A stretch of 64,000 nt of DNA, from contig NZ_AP023213.1 of NCBI RefSeq assembly GCF_014218275.1, forward strand, positions 2,768,001 to 2,832,000, read 5' to 3'. The notes under the pieces are model-generated. The model did no database searches. It was given only the letters and a program-made list of their open reading frames with translations, and was not told the origin of the DNA. Below, one piece after another: positions 42,729-59,786 of the stretch. The DNA comes from Citrifermentans bremense. Its GTDB lineage: Bacteria > Desulfobacterota > Desulfuromonadia > Geobacterales > Geobacteraceae. Made by a program: the position numbers and the translations under genes. How positions within the stretch are numbered: position 1 is the stretch's first letter; the number at the start of each line of letters is the position of its first letter.

Positions 42729-44072
42729 TTACCTGTTGACGACGATCGCGCCGAAGAGGTCCTCGGCAAGCCTCAACCCTCCGCGGAACCCTGTGTAGCC
42801 GCGGTCGAGCACGGCGCGATTGGCGACGGGGAAGGAAACCGAGAGATGCGGCGCGCCGATCTGCAGCGCCAGCTCGCGCTCAAGGGAGCTACCCACGACG
42901 AAGGCGGGGCTGAAGGAGTTGTAGTATTTCTGCCCGGCGGGTTGCGGCCAGACCCGGTTCAGGTGCCCCAGCACCTGGGAGCCATCCGATTCGAAGACAA
43001 CGTTGGTGGCAAAGCCGCTGGCAAGCTGCCCCACGCGCCCTGCGATCGCAGACTGCTCGCTCTCCTGGACCCGGTCGGTCACCACGGTGAGCGCGGGTAG
43101 CCAGCCCAAGTCATCAGCCAGGAACCGGGTCAGCGCCACGGCGTAGTTGGCGTCGCCTACCACGACGGCATAGCGCTGCAGGTCAAGGTCGTTGTAGCAG
43201 TCGGTGAGCGGATCAAGGATTTGGTAATACTCCTTCTTCTCACGCGCGATCACCCGCTCCACGAGGCCCTCATCGAGCGAAAGCGCTGCCCCCACCTGGC
43301 GCAGGAACTCTTCCGACGCCGAGACTCCGATGGGAAGCGGCGCGGTGACGAAAGGGGTGCCGTGCTTCTCTTCGAAGAGCCGGGCGGCGCCCTGCCCATA
43401 GAGGTCGGAGGCGACGATGTTCAGCTCCGCCGAGGCGGCGGCTTGAATCCCCTCCAGCGTGTCGGCGGGGGTGAAGAAGGAGTTCACCTCCAGGCCGATC
43501 AGCTCCAGCAGGCGCCGGGCACCCTCCAGGTTCCCACGCCAGAAGGGATCCATGTACGGCACCACACCCCAGAGGTTCACCCTCCCCTTCGCCTTCTCGA
43601 TTCCCTTGGCCAGGTAGTCCTTGACCAGCGCCTGGAGCACCAGGTCGTACCCCCAGTAGGAATCGCCGCGGAAGCCGCCGGTGGCGGCCCCGATGATTGA
43701 AACCCCTTCGCTGCGAAAATCGTTCACCACGGCGAAGATGTCGTCGCCGATCACCTCGGGGACGCAGCCGGTGACAACGACGTACAGCCCGCCGTGCATC
43801 ACCTTGAGCGTCGAGGCGATCTGCTCGCGCAGACGCTCCTCGCCGCCGAAGACGACTTCGGTCTCACCGATGTTGGAGCTCGGCACAGTGAGGGAGCCGC
43901 AGTACCCTCCCACCTGCAGCCCGCTGCCGCCGTTCTGGGTCCAGGCGAAGTTGCCGGCGCACCCCGAGGCGGAATGGAGGATGGGGACTCCCCCCGGCAG
44001 CGCGGTGACCGTTGCGGCCGCCCCTCCCAGTGAGCAGAGATAGCGTGCCCTTTCTACGAAATTCTCACTCAT
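42729..44072 (-). CDS. Nitrogenase-like component, NifK-type subunit
   Basis: 447 residues. Cys13, Cys38 and Cys103 (YLCSLGG, HSASGCAGN, VTGCVPEVIGDDI) match the three P-cluster ligands of NifK, with the first two 25 residues apart as in nitrogenase. The C-terminus keeps GYTGFRGGLRLAEDLF. It is shorter than NifK. Its start overlaps the NifD-like stop by eight bases, implying a fixed-ratio heterodimer. It would pass electrons from the NifH-like protein to the NifD-like active site. The substrate is not nitrogen by context; see the findings. Confidence 0.85.
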   Translation of the reverse strand: MSENFVERARYLCSLGGAAATVTALPGGVPILHSASGCAGNFAWTQNGGSGLQVGGYCGSLTVPSSNIGETEVVFGGEERLREQIASTLKVMHGGLYVVVTGCVPEVIGDDIFAVVNDFRSEGVSIIGAATGGFRGDSYWGYDLVLQALVKDYLAKGIEKAKGRVNLWGVVPYMDPFWRGNLEGARRLLELIGLEVNSFFTPADTLEGIQAAASAELNIVASDLYGQGAARLFEEKHGTPFVTAPLPIGVSASEEFLRQVGAALSLDEGLVERVIAREKKEYYQILDPLTDCYNDLDLQRYAVVVGDANYAVALTRFLADDLGWLPALTVVTDRVQESEQSAIAGRVGQLASGFATNVVFESDGSQVLGHLNRVWPQPAGQKYYNSFSPAFVVGSSLERELALQIGAPHLSVSFPVANRAVLDRGYTGFRGGLRLAEDLFGAIVVNR

Positions 44073-45597
44073 TGACGCTCCTCCCGCGGGTGTTGAGATA
44101 GGAAAACGGCTCGGCCTGGTACCAGGAGTCGCGGTAGGGAAGCTTCAGGTTCTCCGCCAGGTTCCGGTTGTAGGCCGGGTTGGAGAGCTGGCGGTGCAGG
44201 CGGCGCGCTATCTCGTAGACGCCCCGGTAGCCGATGTAGGCAAGCCCGGTGTTATAGATGACGTGGGTGGGTATCCCCAGTTTTGCCGCAGTCATATTGC
44301 CGTTGGCGTGCCCCAGAAAGAGATCCGGCTTCAGGCGGTTCAAAAGGTTCGCCTCCTCGAAGGGCTGCACGTTGGCGATGTCGACCACGTAGTCGCTTTT
44401 GGCCTCTCGGGCCAGCTTGTCGTATTCCACCTCGGCGAAGTGGTCGTGGTGGAAGGAGCGGATCCCTACCACCTCCAGACCGATCTCCTGGAGCAGTCGC
44501 GCAGTCGCCAGCGCCCGGAACTCGCCGGCGCTGACGAAGACCTTCTGCCCCTCGAAGAGCGGCCGGAACTCCTCAAGCGACGCTTTAAGCTCCGCCTCCT
44601 CGGAGGCGATCAGGCGCTCGGCCTGCTCCTCGAAACCGAAAACCCTGGCGACGTCGCGGATCCACAGGCTCGTGTTCTCGATGCCGATGGGCATGTGCTT
44701 TATGATGGAGGGGACGCCGAAGCGCTCCTCCAGATACCCCAGGAAGTAGTCGTCGTGGGTCGGGCAGGTGCTGATGGAGAGCGCGGCCCGGGTCGCCTTG
44801 ACGAAGGAGTCGGGATGGGCGAAGACCGGGAAGACGTTCACCTCCAGCCCGAGGCTCTCCAGAAGCCGCTCCAGCTCCTGCTCGTCCACCCGCCCCATGG
44901 AGGAGACGTTCATCAGGTTGACGGTCTTAGCCAGGCGCTCCTGCTCCCTCAACACCTCGAACTCGTCCTGCGGCGCGTAATCGGTCACCCCTTTCTCCTC
45001 CAGGAGATTGCGGCCGATGGTGTGGTAGACCGCGTCGTAGGCGGTGGCCCAGATCTTGGTCTTGAACCCCTCGCAGTGCACCGGCAGCAGCTTGGCGCTC
45101 ACCTGCGGCTGCAACCGCTGCGCCACGCCGTCGATGTCGTCGCCGATGATCCCGGGGACGCACCCCGCCACGATGGTGATGCTGGCCGGGCGGTAGCGCC
45201 GGTCCGCCTCGATGATGGCGCGGGCCAGCTTGTCCTCGCCGCCGCTGATGACGTCGGTTTCGTCGAGAGCGGTGGAGAGCCAGACGCCGTCCTTGGCCTT
45301 GCCCCAGCGCGCGTTGCTTCCCATGCGGACGTTGGCGTTTTGCGAGTGGGTGCAGGAGCCGCAGCCAAGCGCGCTATGCAAGAGGACCACGTTGTCCGGG
45401 AGCGAGTTGAGCATGGCGAGGGCGGGAAGGAGCAGGCAGATGGTCCCCTGGGTGAAGCCGCGGTCGCCGTCGTCGATCAGGCAGCCCTTGCCCCCCCTGG
45501 CCTTCAGGGCCAGCCCGCAGATGCTGTCGTTGTGGGCGATCACGGCTTTGAGACGGTCCTCGCGCTTGGGCGGGACCTTGTTGTCGAAATAACTCAT
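44065..45597 (-). CDS. Nitrogenase-like component, NifD-type catalytic subunit
   Basis: 510 residues from ATG 45597, with GGAGG upstream (a longer frame adds 10). Cys54, Cys79 and Cys146 (GTICLLL, HSALGCGSC, VAGCVPGIIGDDI) correspond to the P-cluster ligands. Cys278 in STCPTHDDYFLGYLEERFGVP aligns without gaps to the cofactor ligand Cys275 of A. vinelandii NifD, 18 residues before the same Gly-x-Pro. A His (GIPTHVIYNT) lies near the place of the cofactor His442. So it can probably hold both a P-cluster and a NifB-derived cofactor. Residues that make nitrogenase selective for N2 are otherwise not conserved as far as I can see. Confidence 0.87.
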   Translation of the reverse strand: MSYFDNKVPPKREDRLKAVIAHNDSICGLALKARGGKGCLIDDGDRGFTQGTICLLLPALAMLNSLPDNVVLLHSALGCGSCTHSQNANVRMGSNARWGKAKDGVWLSTALDETDVISGGEDKLARAIIEADRRYRPASITIVAGCVPGIIGDDIDGVAQRLQPQVSAKLLPVHCEGFKTKIWATAYDAVYHTIGRNLLEEKGVTDYAPQDEFEVLREQERLAKTVNLMNVSSMGRVDEQELERLLESLGLEVNVFPVFAHPDSFVKATRAALSISTCPTHDDYFLGYLEERFGVPSIIKHMPIGIENTSLWIRDVARVFGFEEQAERLIASEEAELKASLEEFRPLFEGQKVFVSAGEFRALATARLLQEIGLEVVGIRSFHHDHFAEVEYDKLAREAKSDYVVDIANVQPFEEANLLNRLKPDLFLGHANGNMTAAKLGIPTHVIYNTGLAYIGYRGVYEIARRLHRQLSNPAYNRNLAENLKLPYRDSWYQAEPFSYLNTRGRSVNE

Positions 45598-45644
45598 GGT
45601 GCCTCCAGTGGGGCTGCGGCGTTCCACCCCTTCTTGATGTTTAT

Positions 45645-46601
45645 CTAGTTGCGCCAGCGCAAAAGCCTGCGTTCCACGCGTTCGGTGCCCCAGGTGATTA
45701 TGGTCACCACGATGCTGATGAAGATGATCCCCACCACCACGCGCTGGTAATCGGCGAAGTCGGCGAAGTTCTTCACGTACCAGCCGATGCCGGAGTTGGC
45801 GCCGATAAGCTCAGCCGCGGTCAAAAGCACCAGCGAGAAGACCAGCCCCAGCGTGGCCCCGGTGCAGATGTACGGCATGGCCCCGGGGAGGATAACCCTG
45901 AATAGCAGGGTCCGCTCCGGGAGGTTCAGCACGCGCGCCGAGTCGATCAGCCCCTTGGGGATGTTGAAGACCCCGTTCACCGTGTTGATGAAGACCGGCC
46001 AGAAGGCGCCGATGAAGATGACGAAGATGGACGCGGCCCGAAAGCTCGGCAGGAGCGCGATGGCGTACGGTATGTACACGATGGGCGGGATCGGCCCGAG
46101 CACCTTGGTGAAGGGGTGCACCGCGTTGAAGAGCCTGGTGCGCCAGCCGACCACGAGCCCCAGCGGAATACCCGTTGCGAGCGCGATCAGGTAGCCGCTC
46201 ACCAGGAGAATCAGCGAGTTGACGAGCCCCTTCAACATGTCCGGGAGTTCGGTCACAAAGAGCCGCAGCACCGGTTCCGGCTTGGGGAAGAGCATCTGGT
46301 CCAAAAGGACGAACCGGGTCGTAGCCAGGTGCCAGGCGACAAGGACCCCGAAGACGATGGCGGCGACGTCGCCGGCGGCAATACTCCCCTTCCCCGGGCC
46401 GGCAAGGCTCACCCGCAGCAGATAGGCGAACTCCAGCGCGCCTGCCACAATCAGCAGGTAGACAGGAACCTCCTCCCCCGGCACCGGCAGGAGCAGCTCC
46501 GCCAATAGCAGCAGGAAAACGACGTTAGCTGCGGATATGATCAATCGCTTGGCGAAACCGACCCGCTCCACCCGGGCGCTCGCCGACAGGACAGCTTCCA
46601 T
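45645..46601 (-). CDS. ABC transporter permease, sulfonate/taurine/nitrate type (SsuC-like)
   Basis: 318 residues. The BPD_transp_1 domain lies in the second half (LVNSLILLVSGYLIALATGIPLG) with an EAA-type loop near LIDSARVLNLPERTLLFRVILPGAMPYI. Two extra helices precede the standard set. It forms the membrane channel for the binding proteins encoded upstream, with the ATPase at 49533. It lies eight bases after the first binding-protein gene and directly before the NifD-like gene in the same operon, tying uptake of its substrate to the nitrogenase-like enzyme. Confidence 0.88.
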   Translation of the reverse strand: MEAVLSASARVERVGFAKRLIISAANVVFLLLLAELLLPVPGEEVPVYLLIVAGALEFAYLLRVSLAGPGKGSIAAGDVAAIVFGVLVAWHLATTRFVLLDQMLFPKPEPVLRLFVTELPDMLKGLVNSLILLVSGYLIALATGIPLGLVVGWRTRLFNAVHPFTKVLGPIPPIVYIPYAIALLPSFRAASIFVIFIGAFWPVFINTVNGVFNIPKGLIDSARVLNLPERTLLFRVILPGAMPYICTGATLGLVFSLVLLTAAELIGANSGIGWYVKNFADFADYQRVVVGIIFISIVVTIITWGTERVERRLLRWRN

Positions 46602-46609
46602 GGCTTACC

Positions 46610-47659
46610 TCAGTGCTTGTTTATGTGCAGCGACGGGTCCGGGGCGAGGAAGTCCTTGTTGAGCGCCACCCAGAGTTTCTCCTTGGGTTCGCGCTTGACC
46701 AGGGTCGCCAGCGCGCGGGCATAGACGTCCGTGTTCACGTGCGGCTCGATCGGCTCCTTGGATTTCACGTAATCGGCCTTCTTCATGAAGTCCCAGAACT
46801 GCACGATCGACTTCTTGTGCGGGTCCGGGCTCACCAGCAGGTGGCCGCCGTAGATGTCCCTGTTGAGATCCGCCTTGTCGATCTGCACGTACTTGGAGAC
46901 GATGTCGACGGTCTCCTTGCGGTTCCCCTGGTAGAAGCGGTACGCCTTCAAAAGCGCCACCATGAATTTGTCGAAATCGGCCTGGCGCGCCTTTACCGTG
47001 GAGGTGAGCGCCACCTGGCGGCAGCAGGTGTGGCTCTTGATGACGTCCCCCGAGTATTTCACCGCCACGAGCCCCTGCTTCTCAGCCATGGTGTAGTAGG
47101 GAATCCAGGTGAGTCCGGCGTCGACCGCCCCCTTCTTGACCGCCTCCTGCACCGCCGCCGGGGAGTCGAACTCCTTGATGGTCAGGTCCTTGCGCCAGTC
47201 GAGCCCCGCCTCGTGGAGTGCCGCGCGGAAAACCACGTCACCTGTGGCGAGCCGTATGGCGCCGATGGTCGCCCCGCGGTAGTTCTTCAGGTCCTTGAAG
47301 CGTGCGGCGTTCTCGGGCTTGGCGATGAGGGCATGCCCCTCCCCCATCTGGCCGCCGAAGAGGGTGAAGTCGGCGCCGTTGGCGATGAAGGAGAGCGGCG
47401 CGGAGGTGCCGAATGAGCCGATGTCGAGCTTCCCGGTCTTGATGGCGGTCAGCCCCTCGCCGGAGTTGGTGAAGCGGTAAAGCTGGACATCGAGCCCTTC
47501 CTGCTTGAAGAACCCCTTTTCCTGGGCGACGAAGTAAAGAAGGTGACCCGAAGTGGGGAGGTGTCCCACCTTGAGCTTGTGCAGTTCCGCCGCTTGGGCG
47601 GAGAGCCCCGAAAGCGCGAGCAACGCCAGGGCGAGGACGAGGGAGATGATGCGTTTCAT
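46610..47659 (-). CDS. ABC transporter substrate-binding protein, SsuA/TauA-like (copy 1)
   Basis: 349 residues with a signal peptide (ISLVLALALLALSGLSAQA). Two-lobed NMT1/OpuAC-type fold: VGHLPTSGHLLYFVAQEKGFFKQEGLDV, TGKLDIGSFGTSAPL and KKGAVDAGLTWIPYY. An unusual adjacent Cys pair, Thr-Cys-Cys-Arg at residues 211-214, lies where the second lobe would face the ligand cleft; the neighbouring copy has it at the same position. It delivers a sulfur compound to the SsuC-like permease. The exact ligand is unknown. Confidence 0.85.
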   Translation of the reverse strand: MKRIISLVLALALLALSGLSAQAAELHKLKVGHLPTSGHLLYFVAQEKGFFKQEGLDVQLYRFTNSGEGLTAIKTGKLDIGSFGTSAPLSFIANGADFTLFGGQMGEGHALIAKPENAARFKDLKNYRGATIGAIRLATGDVVFRAALHEAGLDWRKDLTIKEFDSPAAVQEAVKKGAVDAGLTWIPYYTMAEKQGLVAVKYSGDVIKSHTCCRQVALTSTVKARQADFDKFMVALLKAYRFYQGNRKETVDIVSKYVQIDKADLNRDIYGGHLLVSPDPHKKSIVQFWDFMKKADYVKSKEPIEPHVNTDVYARALATLVKREPKEKLWVALNKDFLAPDPSLHINKH

Positions 47660-47698: not shown

Positions 47699-48727
47699 CT
47701 AGTTGTTCTTCTTGTAGAAGGCCAGCATCTGCTGGTAGACCTTGTCTTTGGGCTCGCGCTTCAGCACCGAGTCGAGCGCCTGCTTGTAGAGCGTCGTGTT
47801 GATGTGACGGTCGATCGGGTAGTCCTGGGTGATGTACCCGGCATCGCGGACGTGCTGCCAGAAGTCCAGGATCCCCTTTCTCAGCGGGTCCGGATGGGAG
47901 TCGGCGACACGCTTCACGTAGGTCTCGTTGCGGATGATGTCCTCGTCGATCTTCAGCGCGCGGGTGTAGATCTTCACCGTCTCGTCCGGGTTGGTCTTGT
48001 AGAAACGGTAGGCCCGGATCAAGGCGGCTAAGAAACGCCGGTAGGTGTCGGGGTTCGCATTCACCAGTTTGGTCGGAGCGACTATGCGGCAGCAGGTGTA
48101 GTCGGGGTAGAACTCCTCGATGTAGTGGGCGACCTTGAGGCCGTGGTTCTTCTCGGCCAGCGAGAAGTGCGGCGGGTAGACGAGCCCGGCATCGACCGCC
48201 CCCTTCTTGACCGCCTCGACCACCGCGGCCACGCTGCCGAACTCGACGAAGGAGAGGTCCTTCTTGTAGTCGATCCCGGCCTTTTTGAGCGCACCCTTGA
48301 AGATGACGTCGCCGGTGGAGAGCTTGACCAGGCCGATCTTCTTCCCCTTGTAGACCTTCAGGTCCTTGCCGGAGAGTTCCGTCAGCCGCTCGGGGCGGGT
48401 GATGATGGCCTGGCCGCCGATCATCATGCCGCCGATGAAGGTGAACTCGCTCCCCTTGCTGATGAAGAGAAGCGGCGCCGTGGTGCCGAAGGTGCCGACG
48501 TCGAGCTTGTCCGCCTTGAGCGCCGCCATCCCTTCCGCTGCGCTGCCGAACTGGTAGAGGTCGACGTCTACCCCTTCCTCTTTGAAGAACCCTTTTTCCT
48601 TGGCTACGAAATAGAGACCGTGTGCCGGTTCGGGGACGTACCCGACCCTCAGTTTGGGAAGCGAAGCGCCATAGGCGCTGCCGGCCAGCATGGCGATGGT
48701 CAGTGCCAGCGCGAAAATCCTTTTCAT
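47699..48727 (-). CDS. ABC transporter substrate-binding protein, SsuA/TauA-like (copy 2)
   Basis: 342 residues, with signal peptide FALALTIAMLAGSAYGA. It is a close paralogue of the next gene: VGYVPEPAHGLYFVAKEKGFFKEEGVDV, DKLDVGTFGTTAPLLF and the same TCCR at 211-214. The ATG overlaps the stop of the third, shorter binding protein. Divergence between the copies (for example PPHFSLAEKNHGL versus IPYYTMAEKQGL) suggests different but related ligands sharing one permease. Confidence 0.85.
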   Translation of the reverse strand: MKRIFALALTIAMLAGSAYGASLPKLRVGYVPEPAHGLYFVAKEKGFFKEEGVDVDLYQFGSAAEGMAALKADKLDVGTFGTTAPLLFISKGSEFTFIGGMMIGGQAIITRPERLTELSGKDLKVYKGKKIGLVKLSTGDVIFKGALKKAGIDYKKDLSFVEFGSVAAVVEAVKKGAVDAGLVYPPHFSLAEKNHGLKVAHYIEEFYPDYTCCRIVAPTKLVNANPDTYRRFLAALIRAYRFYKTNPDETVKIYTRALKIDEDIIRNETYVKRVADSHPDPLRKGILDFWQHVRDAGYITQDYPIDRHINTTLYKQALDSVLKREPKDKVYQQMLAFYKKNN

Positions 48728-49536
48728 GGTGTTCCTCCTTTGTCAGTGCGTTTCTTTTTGCCGGTCGGGCAGCAGTCGGGGGGACAGACCGCTTTCCCTG
48801 CCAGTTGCTTCAGTACCGGGTCCGGCTCCCCTTCCCCGTCGTTCAGGTCGCCAAGCGCGTCGCAGTAAATCTCGTCGTAGACGTGGTCGGCCAGAAAGCC
48901 CCGCGGCATGGCGGGCTGCTGCAGGTCGAGGCGTTTCCAGATCTGGGCGAGGCGCCAGTAGTCCGGGTCGGGGTCGAAGCGAAACTCCTCCCCTTTGCCG
49001 GGACGTCTGTGGGGGATCCGCCCCCAGGCGTCGGCGGGGTTATTCTGCAGCAGGACGTGGGCCTTGATGAGCGCAGTTACCACCTTTCCCAGCGTCTCCC
49101 GGTCCGGGGCCCCGGCGCCTTCCGCAGCCGCCACCAAGATGCCGCTTCCTTCGCGCTCTAGCCTGGCCGAGGCGTCAACCTCGTCGAGAACCGATGCGGA
49201 ATGGTCGGTACCCCCTCCGGCGATGATGCGGATGGCAGCGCCCCTGGCAATGGCCTGCAGCGCCTGGTCCGCCGCGAAGCAGCCCGCGTCGAGCTTCCCC
49301 TTGCCGAGGGCCGCGAGCCCGCTCGCGCTGTCGGCAAAGCGCACCGGCACGACATCGACCCCCTCGCGTTTGAAGAGCGAGGCCGCGTCGGCCAGCAGGA
49401 AGAGCGCGCTCCCTGGCTGGTCCAGGTAGCCGAAGCGGACCGGGGACGCGGCTTCTGCTATGCCGGGCCGAGCCGCAAGGCAAATTGCCAGTAAGACCGC
49501 GACGATGCTGGCTAAGGCAAAGGGGCGCATGGTCAA
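48724..49536 (-). CDS. Short SsuA-like substrate-binding protein with internal deletion (copy 3)
   Basis: 270 residues, about 75 fewer than its neighbours. The signal peptide and first lobe are kept (VRFGYLDQPGSALFLLADAASLFKREGVDV, GKLDAGCFAADQAL). Much of the second lobe with the TCCR segment is missing; the text resumes at VVTALIKAHVLLQNNP. The tail is Cys-rich (AVCPPDCCPTGKKKR), unlike the others, and might bind metal. It may be a degenerate copy or a specialised one. Both ends overlap neighbouring genes (ATGA), so it is translated within the operon. Confidence 0.7.
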   Translation of the reverse strand: MTMRPFALASIVAVLLAICLAARPGIAEAASPVRFGYLDQPGSALFLLADAASLFKREGVDVVPVRFADSASGLAALGKGKLDAGCFAADQALQAIARGAAIRIIAGGGTDHSASVLDEVDASARLEREGSGILVAAAEGAGAPDRETLGKVVTALIKAHVLLQNNPADAWGRIPHRRPGKGEEFRFDPDPDYWRLAQIWKRLDLQQPAMPRGFLADHVYDEIYCDALGDLNDGEGEPDPVLKQLAGKAVCPPDCCPTGKKKRTDKGGTP

Positions 49537-50348
49537 ATCGCCTCGCCGGCGCTTTGCACGGTGCGCCCGTGGTTGAGCTTTTCCAGCACGTCGGCGTTCA
49601 GCTCGCGTATCAGCTTATGCCTCAGTTCGGCGAAGGCAGGGTCGCTGTAGAGTTCCTGGCGCCGCCGCGGGCGCGGGATGTCTACTTCCAACACGCTCCT
49701 GACCGAGCCGGGGTTCACCCCCATGACCACCACCCGGTCGGCGAGCAGGATCGCTTCCTCCACGTCGTGAGTGACGAAGAAGACGGTCTTGCGCTCGGCG
49801 GAGTTGTGCTGCCAAAGCTGCAAGAGCAGGTCCTGCAGCCGCGCGCGGGTGATGGCGTCGAGTGCCCCGAAAGGCTCGTCCATGAGCAAAACCGGCGAGT
49901 TGATGGCGAAAGCCCGGGCGATGGCGGCGCGCTGCCGCATCCCCCCGGAGAGGGCGCCGGGGAGCTTATGGAAGACGTCGGTCAGCCCCACCATCTCCAG
50001 GTAGGCCTGCGCGGTCTCGGCCTGCTCCGCCTTGGAATTCCCCGGAAAGGCCTGGTTCAGCGCCAGGACCACGTTCTGCCCTGTGGTCATCCAGGGGAAC
50101 AGGCTGTAGTCCTGGAAAACGACGCCGCGGTCGAGTCCGGGGCCGGTTATAGGGCTGCCGTCCAGGGTCAGGCGGCCCGACGACGGCTGCCCGAGCCCAG
50201 CCAGGAGCCTCAAAAGCGTGCTCTTGCCACAACCGGAGGGACCCAGCAGGCAGACGAACTCACCGGCATAGGCGGTGAAGTTGATGTCTTCGAAGATGGT
50301 CTGGCTTCCGTAGGAAAAAGCGACGTCGTGTAGGGCGATCTCGTGCAT
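49533..50348 (-). CDS. ABC transporter ATPase, SsuB/TauB-like
   Basis: 271 residues. Walker [12 protein letters not shown], signature LSGGMRQRAAIARA, Walker [13 protein letters not shown] and the switch His (FVTHDVEEA). It powers the sulfonate/taurine-type importer made by the genes just downstream. It lies 32 bases after cysK in the same transcription unit. Confidence 0.92.
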   Translation of the reverse strand: MHEIALHDVAFSYGSQTIFEDINFTAYAGEFVCLLGPSGCGKSTLLRLLAGLGQPSSGRLTLDGSPITGPGLDRGVVFQDYSLFPWMTTGQNVVLALNQAFPGNSKAEQAETAQAYLEMVGLTDVFHKLPGALSGGMRQRAAIARAFAINSPVLLMDEPFGALDAITRARLQDLLLQLWQHNSAERKTVFFVTHDVEEAILLADRVVVMGVNPGSVRSVLEVDIPRPRRRQELYSDPAFAELRHKLIRELNADVLEKLNHGRTVQSAGEAI

Positions 50349-50380: not shown

Positions 50381-51310
50381 TCAGGCATCCTCGAAGAGCG
50401 CGGTGGAGAGGTAGCGCTCGCCGGTGTCCGGGAGCACCACCACGATCAGCTTTCCCTTGTTCTCCGGGCGCCTCGCGACCTGGCGCGCGGCGAAGGCGGC
50501 GGCTCCCGCCGAGATCCCGACCAGGAGCCCTTCTTCCCTGGCGAGCGCCCGCGCCGTCTCGAAAGCCTCCTCGTTCTTCACCTTGTAGATCTCGTCGTAG
50601 ACGGAAGTGTTTAGGACCCCGGGGACGAATCCCGCGCCTATCCCCTGGAGTTTGTGCGGCGCCGCAGTCCCGCCGGAGAGAACCGGCGAATCGAGCGGCT
50701 CCACGGCGATGACCTGTACGCTCGGCTTTTTCTCCTTCAGCACCTCTCCCACGCCGGTGATGGTCCCCCCGGTGCCGACGCCTGCGATGACGATGTCGAC
50801 CTTGCCCGCGGTGTCCTCCCATATCTCCTCGGCCGTAGTGGCGCGGTGGATGGCGGGGTTGGCGCCGTTATTGAATTGCTGCGGCACGAAGGAGTTTGGG
50901 GTGGCTGCGGCAAGCTCGGTCGCTTTCTCGATGGCCCCCTTCATCCCCTTTGCGCCTGGGGTGAGGACCAGCTCGGCGCCGTAGGCCTTCAAGAGGTTGC
51001 GTCGCTCGATGCTCATGGTGTCGGGCATGGTCAGGATGAGGCGGTACCCCTTGGCCGCGGCAACGAAGGCCAGCGCGATCCCGGTGTTGCCGCTGGTCGG
51101 CTCGATGATCACCGTATCCTTGTCGATGAGCCCCTGCTCCTCGGCCGCCGTGATCATGGCAAAGCCAATGCGGTCTTTTACCGAGCCCCCGGGGTTGAAG
51201 GATTCGAGTTTCGCTACCAGATCGGCGTTGCCACCGGACTGGCGCTGGGAAAGGCGGACGAGAGGGGTTCTCCCTATCAGGTCGGTGACACTGTTGGCGA
51301 TTTTGGACAT
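50381..51310 (-). CDS. cysK: Cysteine synthase (O-acetylserine sulfhydrylase)
   Basis: 309 residues, PLP type II fold. The Schiff-base lysine is in [11 protein letters not shown], the substrate loop is [10 protein letters not shown] and the phosphate-binding glycine loop is [10 protein letters not shown], with GISAGAA near the end. It makes cysteine from O-acetylserine and sulfide. It is 12 bases after the NifX-like gene and just before the sulfonate-type transporter. Its place within the nitrogenase-like operon is one of the best clues that the system yields reduced sulfur for assimilation. Confidence 0.95.
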
Positions 51311-51322
51311 CTGACAGCCTCC

Positions 51323-51673
51323 TTATTGGTTGATGAATCTGGTTAAGAGCTTCGAGTTCTGCAGAACGGCCAGGGCCTCCGGCACCGGGAGTTCCAAAAC
51401 GAACGGGAATATGCGCCGCGAGATCAGGAGGTCGATGGCGCCGGAGCCCAACCGCGAGACGGCAACCCCGCGGCAGTCAGAAATAAGGTCGGCGGTCCGT
51501 TCCAGCGGCCCGTCGTCGTGCTCCTGCCCGGCGCAGGCCGGCCGGCTGAAACGGTCCTCCAGGTGCTGCCAGTTCCCCCCGGTGAAGCGGTAGATGCCGA
51601 ACCTTTCTGCCCGCCCGAAATGCTGGTCGACCACAATCCCGTCACTGCTGGCCACGGCAACCCTGAGCTCCAT
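51323..51673 (-). CDS. NifX/NifB-C-terminal-like cofactor carrier protein
   Basis: 116 residues from ATG 51673 (MELRVAVASSDGIVVDQHFG), with GGGGGAG upstream; longer readings run through the terminator hairpin and are rejected. The dinitrogenase cofactor-binding fold shows VAVASSDGIVVDQHFGRAERFGIY and GVAVSRLGSGA. Such proteins carry the NifB cofactor during assembly. The NifB-like protein at 55873 lacks this domain, so this gene probably supplies it. It is the first gene after the second RNA leader and heads the long operon. Confidence 0.85.
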   Translation of the reverse strand: MELRVAVASSDGIVVDQHFGRAERFGIYRFTGGNWQHLEDRFSRPACAGQEHDDGPLERTADLISDCRGVAVSRLGSGAIDLLISRRIFPFVLELPVPEALAVLQNSKLLTRFINQ

Positions 51674-51872: not shown

Positions 51873-52940
51873 CTAGATCTGGTAGTCGTCCACGAAGACC
51901 CTCATCTTTCGGGGGCGCGCGAAGACTTGGTCCCCGACCTTAAGCGCCAGCTTGTCCGCCTCGTCGCGCGGCAGGTCGACCTCGATGCTCCGGTCGCCTT
52001 CCGGCAAGGAGAGGTCGACCCGGACCAGCGGCCCCACCGAAAGGAGGTAGCGCACCTCAGCCTTGAGCGCGCCCTCGCTCAACTCCCTTTCGATGGAAAT
52101 GTCGTGCGAGCGTACGTACCCTACGGCAGGCGCATCGTTGGCCGAGGCGTTTTCCGGAGAGGAGAGCTTGATCCCCCCCATCTGGGCGGTCCCCTCGTGC
52201 ACCCTTCCCCTAAAGAGGTTGACGTTGCCGAGGAAGTCGTAGACGAACGGCGTGGTCGGGTGGTCGTAGACCTCGGAGGGGGTCCCCTGCTGCTCGATCT
52301 TCCCCTGGTTCATGACCACGATCCGGTCGGCGACCTCGAGCGCCTCCTCCTGGTCGTGGGTCACGAAGACGCTGGTGACGTGGATCTCGTCGTGCAGGCG
52401 CCTAAGCCACCGCCGCAGCTCCACCCTGACCTTGGCATCGAGCGCGCCGAAGGGCTCGTCCAGAAGCAGCACCTGCGGCTCCACAGCAAGGGCCCGGGCC
52501 AGCGCCACGCGCTGCCGCTGCCCCCCCGAGAGCTGGCCCGGATAGCGGTCGGCGAGCTGCTCCAGTTGGATCAGCTTCAGCAGGGAGTGGACCTTGTCTC
52601 TTATCTCCTGCTTTCCCGGACGCACCTTCTTGGGCTTCACGGTGAGGCCGAAAGCGATGTTGTCGAACACCGTCATGTGCCGGAAAAGGGCGTAGTGCTG
52701 GAAGACGAAGCCTACATTCCGTTCCTTTACCTGCCGGTTGGTGGCCTCCACCCCGTCGAACAGGATCCTGCCGCTGTCTGGTGTCTCCAGCCCGGCGATG
52801 ATGCGCAAAAGCGAGGTCTTCCCCGATCCGGAAGGGCCTAAAAGCGCCACCAGTTCCCCGGAGGGAACCTTCAGGTTCACGTCGGAAAGTGCGCTAAAGT
52901 TGCCGAATTTCTTGCTGACCGCCTCGATATCGATGCTCAT
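51873..52940 (-). CDS. cysA: Sulfate/thiosulfate ABC transporter ATPase CysA
   Basis: 355 residues. Walker [12 protein letters not shown], signature [14 protein letters not shown], Walker [15 protein letters not shown]-terminal TOBE-like regulatory domain follows ([33 protein letters not shown]), as in CysA. It energises sulfate uptake with CysT and CysW. It is third in cysT-cysW-cysA and ends about 200 bases before the NifX-like gene, with leader 2 in that gap. Confidence 0.92.
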
Positions 52941-52944
52941 GGGA

Positions 52945-53826
52945 CTACCTTTCCTGTTCCGAGACCGTTACGGTCTGTTGCATTTTCCACTCGGCCGCGG
53001 TTTTCACGGCAAGGGTCACCAGCGCCAAAAGCGCAAGGAGCGAGGCGACGGCAAAGGCCGCCGCATAGCTGTACTCGTTGTAGAGGATCTCCACCTGGAG
53101 CGGGATGGTGTTGGTCGATCCTCGCACGTGCCCGGATACGACAGAGACCGCGCCGAACTCTCCCATGGCCCTCGCGTTGCAGAGGATCACGCCATACAGG
53201 ATGCCCCACCTGATGTTGGGGAAGGTGACCCGGAAGAAGGTCTGCAGCCCGCTCGCGCCAAGGGTCAGCGCCGCCTCTTCCTCCTCGCGCCCCTGCGCCT
53301 CCATGAGAGGGATCAGCTCACGCGCGACGAAGGGGAAGGTGACGAAGACGGTGGCGAGGATGATCCCCGGGACGGCGAAGATGATCTTGATGTTGTGGTC
53401 CTGCAGCCAGGGGCCGAGCCACCCCTGCAGCCCGAAGATCAGGACGTAGATCAGACCCGAAACCACCGGGGAGACCGAGAACGGCAGGTCTATCAGCGTG
53501 ATCAGGAAACTCTTGCCGCGGAAGTTGAACTTGGCGATGGCCCAGGAGGCGACAATCCCGAAGAAGAGGTTCAACGGAACGCAGAAGGCGGCGGTAATCA
53601 GGGTGAGGCGGATCGCCGACAGCGTATCCGGCTCCTTGAGCGCTTCGAAATAAGCCTGCCACCCCTTTTCCAGTGCCTGAGCGAAGACCGCCGCCAAAGG
53701 GAGCAGCAGGAAAAGGGCGAGGAAGCCAAGGGCCACCGTCACCAGCAAGTAGCGCACCCACGCCGGCTCATCGGTGCTCCTTCCTCCCCTTTCTTTTTGT
53801 TTTTTCACTACCCTGCCCACCTGCAT
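52945..53826 (-). CDS. cysW: Sulfate ABC transporter permease CysW
   Basis: 293 residues with about six membrane helices and the permease loop [28 protein letters not shown] (EAA motif). [39 protein letters not shown] is typical of CysW. The N-terminus is basic ([11 protein letters not shown]), and a shorter start is possible. Gene order cysT-cysW-cysA on the minus strand, five bases from cysA. Confidence 0.92.
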
Positions 53827-53851: not shown

Positions 53852-54682
53852 CTATTCGGCGAAACGTCTGCTCCACTTCTGCAAAAGGTTGATGCAAAGA
53901 AGCATCAGAAACGACACCACGAGCATCACGGTCGCGATGGCGGTAGCGCCGGTGTAATCGTACTGCTCCAGCTTGGTGATGATGAGCAGCGGCGTGATCT
54001 CGGAGACCATCGGCATGTTGCCGGCAATGAAGATGATGGAGCCGTACTCCCCCACGGCACGGGCAAAGGAAAGGGCGAACCCGGTAAGGATGGCCGGAAG
54101 CATGGTCGGCAACAGCACCCTGCGGAAGGTCTGCCAGCGGCTGGCTCCCAGGCAGGAGGCCGCCTCCTCTATCTCCTGATCCAGCTCTTCCAGGACCGGC
54201 TGGACCGTGCGGACCACAAAGGGAAGCCCGATGAAGATCATGGCAACGACGATGCCCAGCGGGGTGAAGGCTATCTTGATGCCGCGCGGCTCCAGGTAGC
54301 GCCCGAGCCAGCCGTTGGACGAGTAGATGCTCGCCAGGGTGATGCCTGCGACCGCCGTGGGAAGGGCGAAGGGAAGATCGACCAGTGCGTCGATCAGCTT
54401 CTTGCCGGGGAAACGGTAGCGCACCAGCACCCAGGCGACCAGCACCCCGAAAAATGCGTTGACGACAGCGGCAGCGAGCGAAGCCCCGAAGGTGACGCGA
54501 TAGGAAGCAAGCACGCGCGGCCCGCTCACGGCAGCTACGAAGTCTGCCCACGAAAGGGTTGCGGTCTTGAAGAGGAGTGCGGAAAGAGGAATGAGGACGA
54601 TGAGGCTCAGGTAGAAGACGGTGTACCCGAGCGCCGGGGTGAAACCGGGTAGTACGTTATTTTTCCCGCTTGACCAGGACAT
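53852..54682 (-). CDS. cysT: Sulfate ABC transporter permease CysT (CysU)
   Basis: 276 residues, six predicted membrane helices, EAA loop [68 protein letters not shown] is diagnostic of CysT. ATG 54682 has GGAGGGGAC upstream. It is first in its operon, behind a promoter region with repeats (54701-54794). The binding protein for this transporter is the separate gene at 58791. Confidence 0.92.
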
Positions 54683-54803: not shown

Positions 54804-55880
54804 TCAATTTACACCACTTCGCTGTAGTTCACTGAAACGTCCGAAGCAACGGGCAGCCGAGATCAGGGCGTCTATGTTGGCGGGGGGCGTATCGATGGGA
54901 AGTCCGCAGCCAAGACCGAGGATGTACCCCCTCGGGTTGCCCCGCCCTTTGTCAAGACATTCCATGGCGTTGGCGGTGACGTCGTCGGGGGTGCCGAGAT
55001 ACATGGAGGCGGTGGGACGGATGTTCCCCAGAAGCGCAACCCGGTCCCCCACCTCGGCTTTCGCGTCAGCCAGGTCGACAGCATCGTCCAGACTCAGCAC
55101 CGAAGCGCCGGTTTCGACCATCTCCGGCCAGATCCTGGTAGTGTTGCCGCAGATATGCAGCGCCGGCGCGGCGCCGCAGCCGGCCTTGACCGCAGCGCAG
55201 ACCTCCGTGAGATAGGGAAGCGCGAATTGCCTGAAGAGCGCCGGGGAGATCAGCGTCCCCGAGGCGGTCGGGTCGGCGAGCACGATCCTCGCCCCCCGCT
55301 GCAGCGCCGCCCTGGCGAAACGGATGATGCTGTCGGTCGACAGCCGCAAAAGTCGGTGCGCGAATGCCTGGTTCTTGCGCAGATCGCGCAGGAAAAGCTC
55401 GGTCCCCCGGATGCCCGCCGCCGTAGTGAATGGGCCGGCACAGGTCATGCCGAGCGGCACCAGGTCCCCCACCTCCTTCAGCACCAGCTCCGCCGCCTCC
55501 AGAAAGAGCGGCAGCCGCCCGTCCCGCTCGGGGTCGGCGACCTTCAGGGCATCGAGCTCCTTCTCCCCGGTCACCACATTCTCCACGATGTACGGGGTAC
55601 TGTCGGGAAAGGCAACCCTGCTCCCTATCGCCTCCGCCACCCCGGTCAATCCCGGGCCGGTGTTCACGTTGTCCGCGCCGTACCGGCGCCACGCCGCGAT
55701 CTGCCCCTTGGCGACAAGCTGCGCTGAGTTGTTGTACTCCCCAACGGTGACCCCGATGAGCCGCGCGGCATGGTCGCTGATCAGGAGGTTGACCGGAATC
55801 CGGTCGTACGGCTGCCCCGTCAAGGCGGCTATGGTGCGCTCGCGCGAAGACATGCTCTCCTTGAAGCTGGAATCATCCAT
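54804..55880 (-). CDS. UroD-fold corrinoid methyltransferase (first copy)
   Basis: 358 residues from ATG 55880 (MDDSSFKESM), whose start overlaps the NifB-like stop by eight bases; GGAGG is upstream. Zinc-site motifs LHICGNTTRIW and LGLGCGLPIDTP. It is paralogous to the gene at 40903. It is encoded in the same unit as the NifH- and NifB-like genes, so its work is linked to the nitrogenase-like enzyme: it may move the methyl group of the substrate to the corrinoid protein. No catalytic residues for uroporphyrinogen decarboxylation are evident. Confidence 0.85.
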   Translation of the reverse strand: MDDSSFKESMSSRERTIAALTGQPYDRIPVNLLISDHAARLIGVTVGEYNNSAQLVAKGQIAAWRRYGADNVNTGPGLTGVAEAIGSRVAFPDSTPYIVENVVTGEKELDALKVADPERDGRLPLFLEAAELVLKEVGDLVPLGMTCAGPFTTAAGIRGTELFLRDLRKNQAFAHRLLRLSTDSIIRFARAALQRGARIVLADPTASGTLISPALFRQFALPYLTEVCAAVKAGCGAAPALHICGNTTRIWPEMVETGASVLSLDDAVDLADAKAEVGDRVALLGNIRPTASMYLGTPDDVTANAMECLDKGRGNPRGYILGLGCGLPIDTPPANIDALISAARCFGRFSELQRSGVN

Positions 55881-56721
55881 TGCCTGCCTCCACCGTGCAG
55901 CCGCCGATGAGTCCGATGGCGTCGGCCCGGCACTGCTGGCAACCGCGGAACTGCGCGATGATCCCTTCATGGGCCGAGCGGACACTCTCCAGGTACTGCT
56001 GGGTCGGGCGGTCGACGCCGGCAAGCTCAGCCTGCGGGATGATCGGCATGACGTTCATGACGTAGCCCCCGCTCTCGCGCACCTTCTCAGCGATAGGGGA
56101 AATCTGCGAGTCGTTGATCCCCGGGATCAGCACCGTGTTCACCTTTACCAGGAGTCCCTGTTCGGCGGCGAGGCGGACCCCCTCGAACTGGTTGTGGATC
56201 AGGATGGCGGCTCCCTCCTCTCCGCAATAGCGCTGGCCACGGTACCTGACTTCTTTGTAGATTTTCGCGCCTACCTCTGCGTCGACCGCGTTAATCGTGA
56301 TGGTGATGCTGTGCAGGTCGACCGTGGCGAGGTCGGCTATCCGGTCCCGGAGTACGAGCCCGTTGGTGCTCAGGCAAAAGATCAGTTCTGGAAATTCTGC
56401 CTTGACCAGCCTGAAGGTCTCGAAGCTCTCTTCGTTGGCGAGCGGGTCTCCCGGGCCGGCGATACCGACCACCTTGATAACCGACGAGAGCGCGGGGTCC
56501 GCCATGGCGCTGCGCACCTGTTCAAGCCCCTCCTTGGGCGTCAGCAGCCGGCTGGCGACGCCGGGACGCGATTCGTTGGCACAGTCGTGCCTTCTGTCGC
56601 AATAGCGGCAGGCGATGTTGCAGCGCGCAGCGACCGCGAGATGGATGCGCCCGTTTCTGTGGCGGTTTGCTCCGAAGCAGGGATGACCGTGGACCACCCG
56701 CTCCCTGTTGCCTGCTCTCAT
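55873..56721 (-). CDS. NifB-like radical SAM cofactor maturase (without NifX domain)
   Basis: 282 residues. The radical SAM site is CNIACRYCDRRHDCANESRPGV, the long form specific to NifB. The N-terminal HPCFGA and C-terminal CQQCRADAIGLIGG provide the further cysteines that bind the K-clusters. NifB uses SAM to fuse two [4Fe-4S] units into the 8Fe core with a central carbide. All these residues are present, so cofactor synthesis is likely. It lacks the C-terminal NifX-like domain found in longer NifB forms; a separate gene at 51323 fills that gap. It follows the NifH-like genes. Confidence 0.9.
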   Translation of the reverse strand: MRAGNRERVVHGHPCFGANRHRNGRIHLAVAARCNIACRYCDRRHDCANESRPGVASRLLTPKEGLEQVRSAMADPALSSVIKVVGIAGPGDPLANEESFETFRLVKAEFPELIFCLSTNGLVLRDRIADLATVDLHSITITINAVDAEVGAKIYKEVRYRGQRYCGEEGAAILIHNQFEGVRLAAEQGLLVKVNTVLIPGINDSQISPIAEKVRESGGYVMNVMPIIPQAELAGVDRPTQQYLESVRSAHEGIIAQFRGCQQCRADAIGLIGGCTVEAGNG

Positions 56722-56748: not shown

Positions 56749-57627
56749 TTAGATGTTCGCGGCCCGCCCCCTGACCTCACCGGTCTGCATGGCGAGTAGC
56801 GCGTCGGCCCACTTGAAGGCCCAGGCATGCAGCGCCTTTTCCTCCAGCGGCTCGGGGACCCTGGATTCGGTGTGCTCGTAGATCTTCTGCGCGAGCCCCT
56901 GGTACACCTTGGCCTGCTCGGAATCGATGAAAGCCTCGATGGTCGTCTTTCCCTGCAGCTCCGCCTGCGTCACGGTCACCGAGCGGGGGACGTACTCGAT
57001 CACCCTGGTCTTCGTCTGCTCTACGAAGTCGTCGACGATCTCCTTTGCGTACTCCGTGTTGATGGAGTTGGCGATCACCCCGCCCAGCAAAGCGCCGCCG
57101 TTGTCCGAGTATTTCTTGATCCCCTTGAAGAGGTTGTTGGCCGCGTAGATGGCCATGAAGTCGGAGGAGGAGACGGTGAAGACGTGCTCCGCGATCCCCT
57201 CCCTGACCGGGACCGCGAACCCGCCGCAGACCACGTCGCCCAGAACGTCGTACACCACCACGTCCAGGTCGAGTTCCTCGAACACCCTGAGCTGCTTCAA
57301 CAGCTCCACCGAAGTGATGATGCCGCGCCCGGCGCAGCCGACCCCTGGGGCGGGCCCCCCCGCCTCCACGCAATAGATCCCGTTGAACCCCTCGAAGATG
57401 ACTTCGTTCGCTTTCACGTTCTTCTTCTCGCGCAGCGTGTCGAGAATGGTGGGGATGTAGCCGCCGCCGCGCAGCGTGGTGGTAGAGTCGCTCTTGGGAT
57501 CGCACCCTATCTGCATCACCTTGAGCCCCATGGTGGAAAGCGCTGCCGTTAGGTTCGAGGTGGTGGTGGACTTGCCGATGCCGCCTTTTCCGTAGATGGC
57601 GATTGTTTTTACCTTCTTGCGAGACAT
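56749..57627 (-). CDS. NifH-like ATP-dependent iron protein (complete ligands)
   Basis: 292 residues, NifH length. Walker [13 protein letters not shown], nucleotide switch CDPKSDST, and the two [4Fe-4S] ligands Cys98 (GVGCAGRG) and Cys134 ([12 protein letters not shown]). It should act as a homodimer passing electrons, with ATP hydrolysis, to the NifD/NifK-like protein and perhaps to cofactor assembly. It is downstream of the second, incomplete NifH-like gene and upstream of the NifB-like gene in one operon. Confidence 0.93.
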
Positions 57628-57657: not shown

Positions 57658-58482
57658 CTAGATTCCCAAGCCGCCGTTGACAACGCCGGTTTCCAGTTCC
57701 GAGATGATGTCCCCCCACTTCTGCGCCCAGCTCGACAGCGCCTCGCGGCTAAGCGGTCTCGGGCGGCGCGACTCCATCCCTCTCACCAGGCTCCGGGCCA
57801 GTTTGCGGTAGGCGAAGGAAACATGGGAAAAGGGCGCGGACTGCAGGAGCGTCTGGCTGTAGAAGTCGCTCACCGAAACCATGATGGAGCGGGGGACGGT
57901 GGCAGAAATGACGGCTGCGGTCTGGCTGGCGAAGTCGGAGACGATCGCCTCGTACAGGGGCCCGGAGAGGTTGTTCGCCACCACCCCGCCGAAGCGGCAC
58001 TCGGCTGCGGCAATGGTATTGAACCAGGCGAAGAGATCGTTCACCGCCTGCAGCGCGCACATGTCCGCCGAGGTCACGGCCAGAAGGCGTGACAGCCCCT
58101 CGATTCCGGCCGGGAGCTTGAAGCTTCCTGCCGGCTCACCTGCGGTATCGTGCAATACGTACTCCGGGTCGTAGCCGGCGATCAGCGGATGGGTGAGGAT
58201 GTCGTTTTCCGTGGCTGCTCCGGACTTCAAGGCCGTCCCCAGCTCCAGGCAGAGTGCCCCCGCGTGCCCAAGCGCGTAAAGCGGCGCCTCCTCCCCCAGC
58301 CATCCCGGCAGTGGGATGAGATCGTTTCCACCGCGCAGGACGCTGGTCGAACTCCAGTGGCTGTCGTATCCGACCAGAAGCACCCGCTTCCCGGTCTCAG
58401 CCAAAGCGGCGCTCAGGTTGGCCGCGGTAGTCGACTTGCCGACCCCGCTTTTACCCGCGATTACCAGATGTTCCACAGCCAC
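57658..58482 (-). CDS. NifH-like paralogue lacking a cluster-ligand cysteine
   Basis: 274 residues from a GTG start at 58482, after GGAGG. It keeps the P-loop (AGKSGVGKSTTAANLS) and NifH layout, but the switch reads YDSHWSST and the segment matching [10 protein letters not shown] reads HDTAGEPAGS, with Ala118 in place of the cluster cysteine. Cys78 may match the other. It therefore probably cannot hold the bridging [4Fe-4S] cluster in the usual way. The C-terminal part resembles its neighbour (WAQKWGDIISELETG versus [15 protein letters not shown]). It could be an ATP-binding partner or regulator of the true NifH. It is first behind leader 1. Confidence 0.82.
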   Translation of the reverse strand: MAVEHLVIAGKSGVGKSTTAANLSAALAETGKRVLLVGYDSHWSSTSVLRGGNDLIPLPGWLGEEAPLYALGHAGALCLELGTALKSGAATENDILTHPLIAGYDPEYVLHDTAGEPAGSFKLPAGIEGLSRLLAVTSADMCALQAVNDLFAWFNTIAAAECRFGGVVANNLSGPLYEAIVSDFASQTAAVISATVPRSIMVSVSDFYSQTLLQSAPFSHVSFAYRKLARSLVRGMESRRPRPLSREALSSWAQKWGDIISELETGVVNGGLGI

Positions 58483-58507
58483 GGCGCACCTCCTTTCAAT
58501 AGCGCAT

Positions 58508-58596: not shown

Positions 58597-58752
58597 CTAG
58601 ATCCTGATCTTCTCGCTTTTGTCCAGCTGTATGACCTTGCCATCCTGTATGACCAGGGTCACCGTCCCGAAACGGATGTCCCTGAGCGCCAGGCGGATCT
58701 TTTGCTCGAGATCGGTGTTCCACTTTCCACTTGGTTCTGGTGTCGTCGCCAT
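58597..58752 (-). CDS. YezD-like small protein (DUF2292)
   Basis: 51 residues from ATG 58752, with GGAGGGGG six bases upstream. The core RDIRFGTVTLVIQDGKVIQL followed by DKSEKIRI is the DUF2292 pattern. Family members of this size sit next to sulfate-assimilation genes in many bacteria, including yezD of Bacillus, and the function is unknown. Here it lies 38 bases after the sulfate-binding protein gene and just before leader 1, so it belongs to the sulfate-uptake side. Confidence 0.82.
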   Translation of the reverse strand: MATTPEPSGKWNTDLEQKIRLALRDIRFGTVTLVIQDGKVIQLDKSEKIRI

Positions 58753-58790
58753 GCCCCCTCCAGGAACCTGCATGAACCGGGTGATCCCGG

Positions 58791-59786
58791 TTACTTGCCG
58801 CCCGAGTAGATCTGGTCGAAGACGCCGCCATCGGCAAAGTGCGTCTTCTGGGCCTTGCGCCAGCCTCCGAAGGTGTCATCGATGGTCAACAGCTTCACTT
58901 TCGGGAACACCTTGGCGTACTTGGCGGCTACCTTCTTGTCGCGCGGGCGGTAATAATGCCTCGCAGCGATCTCCTGGCCTTCCGGAGAGTAGAGGTATTT
59001 CAGGTATTCCTCGGCAAGCTTGCGGGTCCCTTTCCTGTCGACCACCTTGTCGACCAAGGTCACGGGCGGCTCGGCGAGGATACTGAGCGAAGGGACTACG
59101 ATCTCGAATTTGTCTCTCCCCAACTCGTTCACCGCAAGAAAAGCCTCATTTTCCCAGGCCAGGAGCACATCCCCCTGCCCGCGCTGCACGAACGTCGTGG
59201 TGGAACCGCGGGCGCCGGAATCCAGAATCGGCACATGCTTGAACAACTCGGACACGAACGCCTTGGCTTTCGCTTCATTGCCTCCTTTTTGCTTCAGTGC
59301 GTAGCCCCAGGCGGCCAGGTAGTTCCAGCGCGCGCCACCGGAGGTTTTCGGGTTGGGAGTTATGACGGAAACGCCAGGCTTGATCAAATCATTCCAGTCC
59401 TTGATATGCTTCGGGTTTCCTTTGCGCACCAGGAATACGATGGTCGAGGTGTAGGGAGAGCTGTTGTTGGGGAGTCTTTTCTGCCAGTTGGCCGGGATCA
59501 GTTTTGCCTTGTCGCTGATCTCGTCGATGTCGTAGGCAAGGGCCAGGGTGACGACGTCGGCTTCCAGGCCGTCGATGACCGCTCGCGCCTGTTTTCCAGA
59601 GCCGCCGTGGGACTGTTTGAAGGTGACCTTTTGCCCCGACTTCCTGGCGAAAGCCTTGTTGAAGTCCTGGTACAGCTCCCGGGTCGGGTCGTAGGAAACG
59701 TTGAGGAATTCCTGGGCTGCGAAGGCCGTCAGCGGCAATGCAGCCACCAACAGGGTGAGTAATGCGGTGCGAATTGTCTGTTTCAT
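58791..59786 (-). CDS. sbp: Periplasmic sulfate-binding protein
   Basis: 331 residues with signal peptide [17 protein letters not shown]. The Sbp/CysP fold is evident in [61 protein letters not shown] and [25 protein letters not shown]. It presents sulfate to CysTWA, encoded about 4 kb downstream. ATG 59786 follows AAAAGGAGGAG. It is the first gene of the unit that leads through yezD and leader 1 into the NifH-like genes. Two copies of TAGACTAAT lie in its promoter. Confidence 0.93.

Follow-up and report, generated by a model that had tools for sequence, protein, structure and literature searches.

In the comparison of nitrogenase-family enzymes given in PMC12552129, every reductase component holds an [Fe4S4] cluster, which in MarH of methylthio-alkane reductase is bound by Cys97 and Cys133. 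IsrH, the Fe protein of isethionate reductase, belongs to a sulfonate pathway that includes an Ssu importer, and it carries both cysteines together with a complete ATP motif; the D protein of this nitrogenase-like reductase has a single P-cluster cysteine and no Cys275, and IsrB resembles NifB in the radical SAM motif only (PMC11423573). The nearest statement in print comes from Dos Santos et al. 2012 (PMC3464626): nitrogenase-like genes, for example in Geobacter sp. FRC-32, are associated with either O-acetylhomoserine sulfhydrolase or cysteine synthase, an association that points to sulfur metabolism. Geomonas genomes are reported to carry one to two nifH copies each (PMC10746287). The locus described here resembles in gene content the type I, non-selenium mlp clusters, in which several MtaA-like methyltransferases accompany a corrinoid protein and RACo in the vicinity of Mar-like genes, and for which methionine salvage or the use of methyl sulfides has been proposed; the available part of that paper mentions no second, cluster-free NifH for them (PMC10418091). 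Our literature search, which took in few subscription papers, found no description of a cysteine-free NifH branch in the parts of the sources covered, and the available portions of PMC9012536, PMC8859169 and PMC545781 contain nothing that bears on the protein described below.

This protein, which we call Q, is encoded in a stretch of 64,000 nucleotides (the window) from Citrifermentans bremense, whose genome is a single contig of 4.46 Mb. Q descends from the branch of MarH and NifH' proteins (the latter being NifH-like relatives of Q, most of which retain both cysteines), has the NifH fold in a structural model, and has lost both cluster ligands. Its lineage persists under purifying selection in genomes in which no Mar-type enzyme was found, and its loci hold genes for sulfate or sulfonate uptake.

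The Mar-type cluster of the window

The genes surrounding Q are summarized in Table 1. In a phmmer search, the best PDB match of the neighbouring Fe protein is MarH (9fmg_D), at 456.5 bits against 284 for the next Fe protein, and the nearest solved structures of the window's H, D, and K proteins are MarH, MarD, and MarK (Isr and Nfa sequences stood outside this comparison). Seven cysteines of the MarD- and MarK-like proteins align with cysteines of MarD and MarK; six of these, three in each protein, presumably belong to the P-cluster, and the seventh is the Cys275 equivalent in D. The window departs from isethionate reductase in that its B protein is NifB-like and its D protein has three plus one cysteines, most of which IsrD lacks (PMC11423573). 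These matches place the neighbour of Q, as the MarH-type protein, in a Mar-type cluster of predicted methylthio-alkane activity. A nitrogenase setting, in which the first-pass annotation had placed Q, is ruled out for the window by this enzyme set. The genes for the SsuA/B/C-type and sulfate importers, CysK, the NifX-like protein, the corrinoid protein, the MtaA-like proteins, and RACo all share the strand of the Mar-type cluster. The third SsuA-like protein adjoins two ordinary binding proteins.

Table 1. Features of the window around the gene for Q
Feature	Position	Strand	Remarks
RACo-type corrinoid reductive activase	38075..39748	minus	Pfam RACo_C_ter 230.3 bits
URO-D/MtaA-type methyltransferase 3	39742..40773	minus	named by appearance and place
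URO-D/MtaA-type methyltransferase 2	40903..41937	minus	Pfam PF01208 310.7 bits
Corrinoid protein	41937..42602	minus	Pfam B12-binding and B12-binding_2
MarK-like protein	42729..44072	minus	MarK 293.4 bits vs 84.8 for next kind
MarD-like protein	44065..45627	minus	MarD 234.2 bits vs 126.9 for next kind
SsuC/NtrB-type ABC permease	45645..46601	minus	TIGR01183 119.7 bits, below cut-off 209.05
SsuA-family binding protein	46610..47659	minus	TIGR01728 116.6 bits, below cut-off 163.5
SsuA/NMT1-like binding protein	47699..48727	minus	Pfam NMT1 87.5 bits
Third SsuA-like protein	48724..49536	minus	named by appearance; no Pfam match
SsuB-type ABC ATPase	49533..50348	minus	translation; named by context
Cysteine synthase CysK	50381..51310	minus	TIGR01139 476.6 bits, over cut-off
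NifX/NafY-like cluster-binding protein (putative)	51323..51670	minus	Pfam PF02579 56.7 bits; open frame to 51775
CysA-type sulfate ABC ATPase	51873..52940	minus	named by order and appearance; conserved sbp, cysTWA order
CysW-type sulfate ABC permease	52945..53826	minus	named by order and appearance; conserved sbp, cysTWA order
CysT-type sulfate ABC permease	53852..54682	minus	named by order and appearance; conserved sbp, cysTWA order
URO-D/MtaA-type methyltransferase 1	54804..55826	minus	Pfam PF01208 285.9 bits; start uncertain, open frame to 56024
NifB-like radical SAM protein (MarB-type by context)	55873..56721	minus	TIGR01290 300.5 bits, below cut-off 343.65
MarH-type Fe protein, both Cys	56749..57627	minus	30 bp downstream of Q; phmmer vs PDB
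Q, cluster-free NifH/MarH-like protein	57658..58482	minus	274 aa, GTG start; neither [4Fe-4S] Cys ligand present
AGGAGG ribosome-binding site of Q	58489..58494	minus	read from sequence
OscA-like small protein	58597..58773	minus	NF033785 32.3 bits, E 7.4e-8, below cut-off 85
Sulfate ABC transporter substrate-binding protein Sbp	58791..59786	minus	NF008022 544.3 bits, cut-off 288

Ligand loss, ancestry, and fold of Q

The open reading frame of Q was confirmed as first annotated and is intact; it matches Pfam Fer4_NifH over residues 5-251 (89.7 bits, cut-off 25), and most orthologues start with ATG at the same place or within one codon. Its P-loop in the window strain is GKSGVGKS. The segment of the second ligand reads HDTAGEPAGS and the switch YDSHWSST, just as the first-pass annotation had given them, but that annotation counted one lost ligand; the loss is real and the count too low, since the first ligand segment, which reads GVGCAGRG in the neighbour, has likewise given way to a short unrelated stretch. 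The NifH segments that bear the cluster and Arg100 are missing. Q is a real, intact gene of the NifH fold from which both [4Fe-4S] ligands have disappeared.

An alignment of orthologues, set beforehand as the check on the claim of a NifH-like P-loop protein without cluster ligands, bore it out: the two cysteines per subunit by which Fe proteins hold their [4Fe-4S] cluster (Cys97 and Cys132) are absent from Q and from 21/21 rows of its clade. Relatives were collected with one query at E<=1e-40 from 277 genomes of the class, 36 of which gave a match, three of them only through MarH-like proteins; a further 13 loci came from named genomes, with one weak partial match, and named loci were equated with class genomes by identical proteins (e.g., L039 is G165). 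The protein of a named Citrifermentans bremense genome is 84% identical to Q of the window. The ligand alignment comprised 67 rows with MarH as the ruler, rows aligned over fewer than 235 residues being excluded; the trees exclude seven NifH rows as near-duplicates, and the 63-row tree, built without the ligand and Walker columns, also omits four MarH rows from another family.

Twenty-two of these 63 rows have neither cysteine, and 21 of them, from 20 Geobacterales genomes (Geomonas and Geotalea groups), form a single clade with 100/100 support, so that neither a loss specific to one strain nor a sequencing artefact accounts for the ligand loss. The clade is nested among NifH' proteins, but a long stem, at 1.0 changes per column, makes its deep placing uncertain, and the trees carry long-branch warnings. 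The remaining cysteine-free row, G223, lies outside it, beside a sister row (G240) that lacks one cysteine. Grouping all 22 rows as one clade, with a single loss, was rejected (p-AU 0.0018, in a test that shares the model's long-branch pull), and the G223 lineage lost both cysteines separately. Losses of both or one cysteine outside the Q clade were recorded in NifH' proteins at L077:10028-10924 (G223) and L078:3955-4836 (G240); the G223 gene lies 18 bp before a corrinoid gene. When 395 genomes of the phylum were searched with a profile (E<=1e-48), eight matched, the window's own and seven others that have both cysteines; a search of 59 relatives of one of them, G302, matched only G302 itself. 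A tblastn search of plasmids returned 50 records, all below 60% identity and, among the matches listed, either annotated as nifH or unannotated.

The P-loop, at first described as intact, is so in the window strain but not throughout the orthologues: of the 20 clade rows covering the position, three have Arg and three have Val for the Walker lysine (GxxGxGK[ST]). Over the tree it changed at least five times and is missing from 12 of the 62 rows with a letter there, six of them NifH' rows with Thr (including G223); for five of the 12 genomes concerned, the search gave no MarD-like gene. In L067, L068, and L069 (G186, G188, and G155), NifH' has both cysteines, Thr for the Walker lysine, and no MarD-like genes in its genome, and in the latter two loci it directly follows cysA. 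In two genomes whose Q is without the Walker lysine, a small protein is encoded between the OscA-like gene and Q (L064:10284-10595, with DUF2325, and L065:10455-10766). K10, which we take to be the signature lysine of the deviant-Walker (MinD/ParA/NifH) P-loop superfamily, is kept in 18 of the 20 clade rows covering that site and is Arg in G141 and G180; with this lysine in its P-loop, Q belongs to the superfamily.

An AlphaFold2 model of Q, built from 19 rows (13 Q, 6 MarH-type) and holding no ligands or metals, has the NifH fold (pLDDT 86.6, pTM 0.87). Its top fold matches are MarH chains, both by Foldseek and by VIA-align (Z 27.8, with an rmsd of 2.8 across 254 residues), and by profile, too, MarH (9fmg) is the closest solved relative, at 167 bits against 102 for the next. 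Q and MarH are alike in fold and in a setting of sulfur metabolism, but Q has neither cysteine, lacks the corresponding loop, and persists without MarDK. With NifH it shares the fold and a deviant Walker P-loop; it differs in its score against the NifH equivalog TIGR01287 (109.9 bits, under the curated cut-off of 394.35), in the absence of ligands, and in lying away from the nif matches of its own genome. The deviant-Walker ATPases MinD and ParA are cluster-free P-loop dimers that serve as nucleotide switches. MinD (1hyq) matches the model at Z 23.2, although in fold and sequence Q is nearer to Fe proteins (Z up to 27.8).

Across the Q rows, 72 positions reach a conservation of 90% or more. 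Tyr39 and His111 occur in 21/21 of them and in none of the 27 MarH-group or 13 NifH' rows, the MarH group having Cys (27/27) in place of Tyr39 and Tyr or Phe in place of His111; Asn171 and His220 are found in 20/21 Q rows, 0/27 MarH-group rows, and 0/13 NifH' rows. Glu116, which replaces Asp129, is present in 20/21 Q rows and is common to 8/13 NifH' rows. With Tyr39, His111, and His220 newly fixed and Cys78 (numbered from Val1) invariant, Q might bind a cluster through other residues and stay a redox protein. Cys78, however, is conserved in the MarH group as well, which has both ligands, and is therefore no replacement ligand; a single cysteine per subunit is in any case a poor [4Fe-4S] site. 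We consider binding through alternative ligands very improbable.

Occurrence, selection, and locus setting of Q

Across the 277 genomes, 21 have Q or NifH' together with a MarD-like gene, 12 have Q or NifH' alone, 12 have a MarD-like gene alone, and 232 have neither (odds ratio 34, p 4e-15, kinship ignored). The counts depend on several assignments. G144, G244, and G256 matched through MarH-like proteins only and stand outside the 33 carriers of Q or NifH'; G250 and G252 were counted as NifH' carriers by similarity alone, ligand residues aside; and G192, G193, G036, and G131, whose D matches (approximately 1e-31 to 1e-33) were taken to be of NifD level, were removed from 37. G162 has no MarD-like match, and its NifH', with both cysteines, was missed at E<=1e-40 and found only by profile, so the carriers without MarD number at least 13 rather than 12. 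Besides the 20 genomes of the Q clade, G223 has a protein lacking both cysteines, which brings the total to 21 genomes. Three to five MarD-like matches per genome were seen in G141, G148, G159, G183, G185, G199, and others, many of them 30-48% identical to that of the window; such genomes carry diverged nitrogenase-like enzymes side by side, although a small number of the matches stem from split genes.

Because this co-occurrence is far above chance, a role of Q with MarHDK is possible, and Q could be a Mar accessory, either as a heterodimer with MarH or by helping MarDK as a chaperone or in cluster insertion; NifH without its cluster is known to assist cofactor synthesis. In keeping with this, marH is the next gene to Q in the window, G165, G176, and G159, the entire Mar-type cluster lies on the Q strand, and corrinoid or RACo genes stand directly beside NifH' in G187, G223, and G254 and beside Q in G141. 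Against it, 12 genomes have MarD-like genes without Q or NifH' at the cut-offs used, the segments of NifH that bear the cluster and Arg100 are those that Q lacks, and Q occurs without Mar-type D or K genes in 7/20 clade genomes, two pairs of which show purifying selection. On this balance we regard an accessory role as unlikely.

In those seven genomes (G167, G168, G172, G175, G177, G178, and G179; G178 is 85% complete), no MarD-like gene was found at 1e-30, and none has an intact MarH-, MarD-, or MarK-type gene. Obligate pairing of Q with the neighbouring MarH is ruled out by these genomes, and the first-pass annotation's view of a complete NifH as the partner that defines Q finds no support in them, though nif-type genes are present. 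In a family search of 13 genomes, each Mar-less genome yielded just four members of the D/K/E/N family and two NifH-family proteins, which we read as the probable nif set plus Q. The third corrinoid methyltransferase was not found in six of the seven, and G177 has only a 39% paralogue. G175 (Geomonas paludis) is 96% identical in DNA to G165 through Q, after which approximately 740 bp are missing, a deletion that spans most of marH and leaves Q in place; remnants are the start of marH (tblastn, residues 1-43) and the NifB-like and methyltransferase genes (the site is at L040:10826-13111, compared with L039). Being so recent, this deletion carries no information on selection once marH was lost.

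Nei-Gojobori dN/dS of Q was 0.05-0.19 in 11 chosen pairs (dS is saturated in the lowest), including 0.129 for G167/G168 and 0.106 for G172/G177, both Mar-less pairs. These values argue that Q is not decaying and rule out a pseudogene. That Q might be a degenerating leftover without function is suggested by its fast divergence (84% identity between the window and G168, where Sbp is 97% identical), the loss of the Walker lysine in some orthologues, and the truncated N-terminus in draft L046; set against this are the low dN/dS, the lack of an internal stop in the other rows of the class search, and the new invariant residues of the clade, and we give this reading only the slimmest chance. The truncated copy, in a draft of Geotalea toluenoxydans (L046:10054-10818), reflects a frame error or recent damage; its close counterpart in G182 is whole.

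Matches to nif-type H, D, K, E, and N were present in all 13 family-searched genomes (one fewer in G188), as would be expected if Q acted on the N2-fixing nitrogenase as a decoy or maturation factor, possibly tying sulfur shortage to nitrogenase. Yet G164 and G174 have nif-type genes but no Q, the cluster-side docking segment is missing in Q, and Q lies in sulfate-uptake loci, which in the complete genomes G000 and G167 are remote from the nif matches. We think an action on nitrogenase very unlikely.

The locus survey covered 18 Q loci, the window, L045, and L046 standing outside the 18; gene calling omitted or misplaced some small genes, and sbp and regulator counts were made by eye. Within the retrieved stretch, sbp was found in 14/18 loci and an Rrf2-type regulator in 13/18, and sbp or cysTWA accompanies Q in 7/7 Mar-less genomes. 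An immediate same-strand neighbour is sbp, cysT, ssuC, or a CysK-like or OscA-like gene in only 9/18 loci, with short gaps to ssuC (13 bp in G167 and G168) and cysT (8 bp in G179). The regulator scores 96 bits against CymR (below the cut-off of 195) and 115 against the Rrf2 superfamily (over cut-off); in the window genome the match to it lies far from Q. Sbp is encoded in 37/41 genomes and is independent of Q, because four of the five genus members without Q also have it. At L035:6000-9984 (Citrifermentans bremense), Q is preceded by a variant gene of the radical SAM kind, one for a putative binding protein, and ssuB-ssuC-like genes; this locus is possibly one of a sulfonate pathway.

A proposed role for Q

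Having no cluster, Q would be unable to pass electrons as Fe proteins do, and the suggestion that its role is not a standard one agrees with the conserved ligand loss. Q of the window retains the deviant-Walker lysine and the equivalents of Asp39 and Asp125, presumably the switches, and of Asn185, which we take to lie on the adenine side, with Glu replacing Asp129. In the nitrogenase Fe protein, the change of Asp129 to Glu uncouples the nucleotide-induced change from hydrolysis, and the solved Asp129Glu structure (1xdb) is among the structural matches of the Q model. Given Glu for Asp129 and the missing Walker lysine in some orthologues, we expect Q to bind nucleotide and to change its shape while hydrolysing little or none of it. 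Q would probably then serve sulfur acquisition as an adaptor or switch that senses nucleotide, its candidate partner being, as a guess, an importer component encoded alongside, the Rrf2/CymR-type regulator, or CysK.

We put at about even the chance that Q is a repurposed, cluster-free Fe protein that takes part in sulfur acquisition as an adaptor or switch dependent on nucleotide, without standard electron transfer. More tentatively, the Fe-protein lineage may have shed its cluster ligands at least twice, one of the resulting branches having possibly become a nucleotide-gated, MinD-like regulator of sulfate or sulfonate uptake that outlived its enzyme.

A conserved ligand-free branch would show that the Fe-protein fold has uses without electron transfer. 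Intermediates in which the cysteines are kept, the Walker lysine is lost, or the cysteines are lost would show a passage between P-loop switch and Fe protein. Counts of nifH genes can, moreover, include proteins that are unable to reduce anything.
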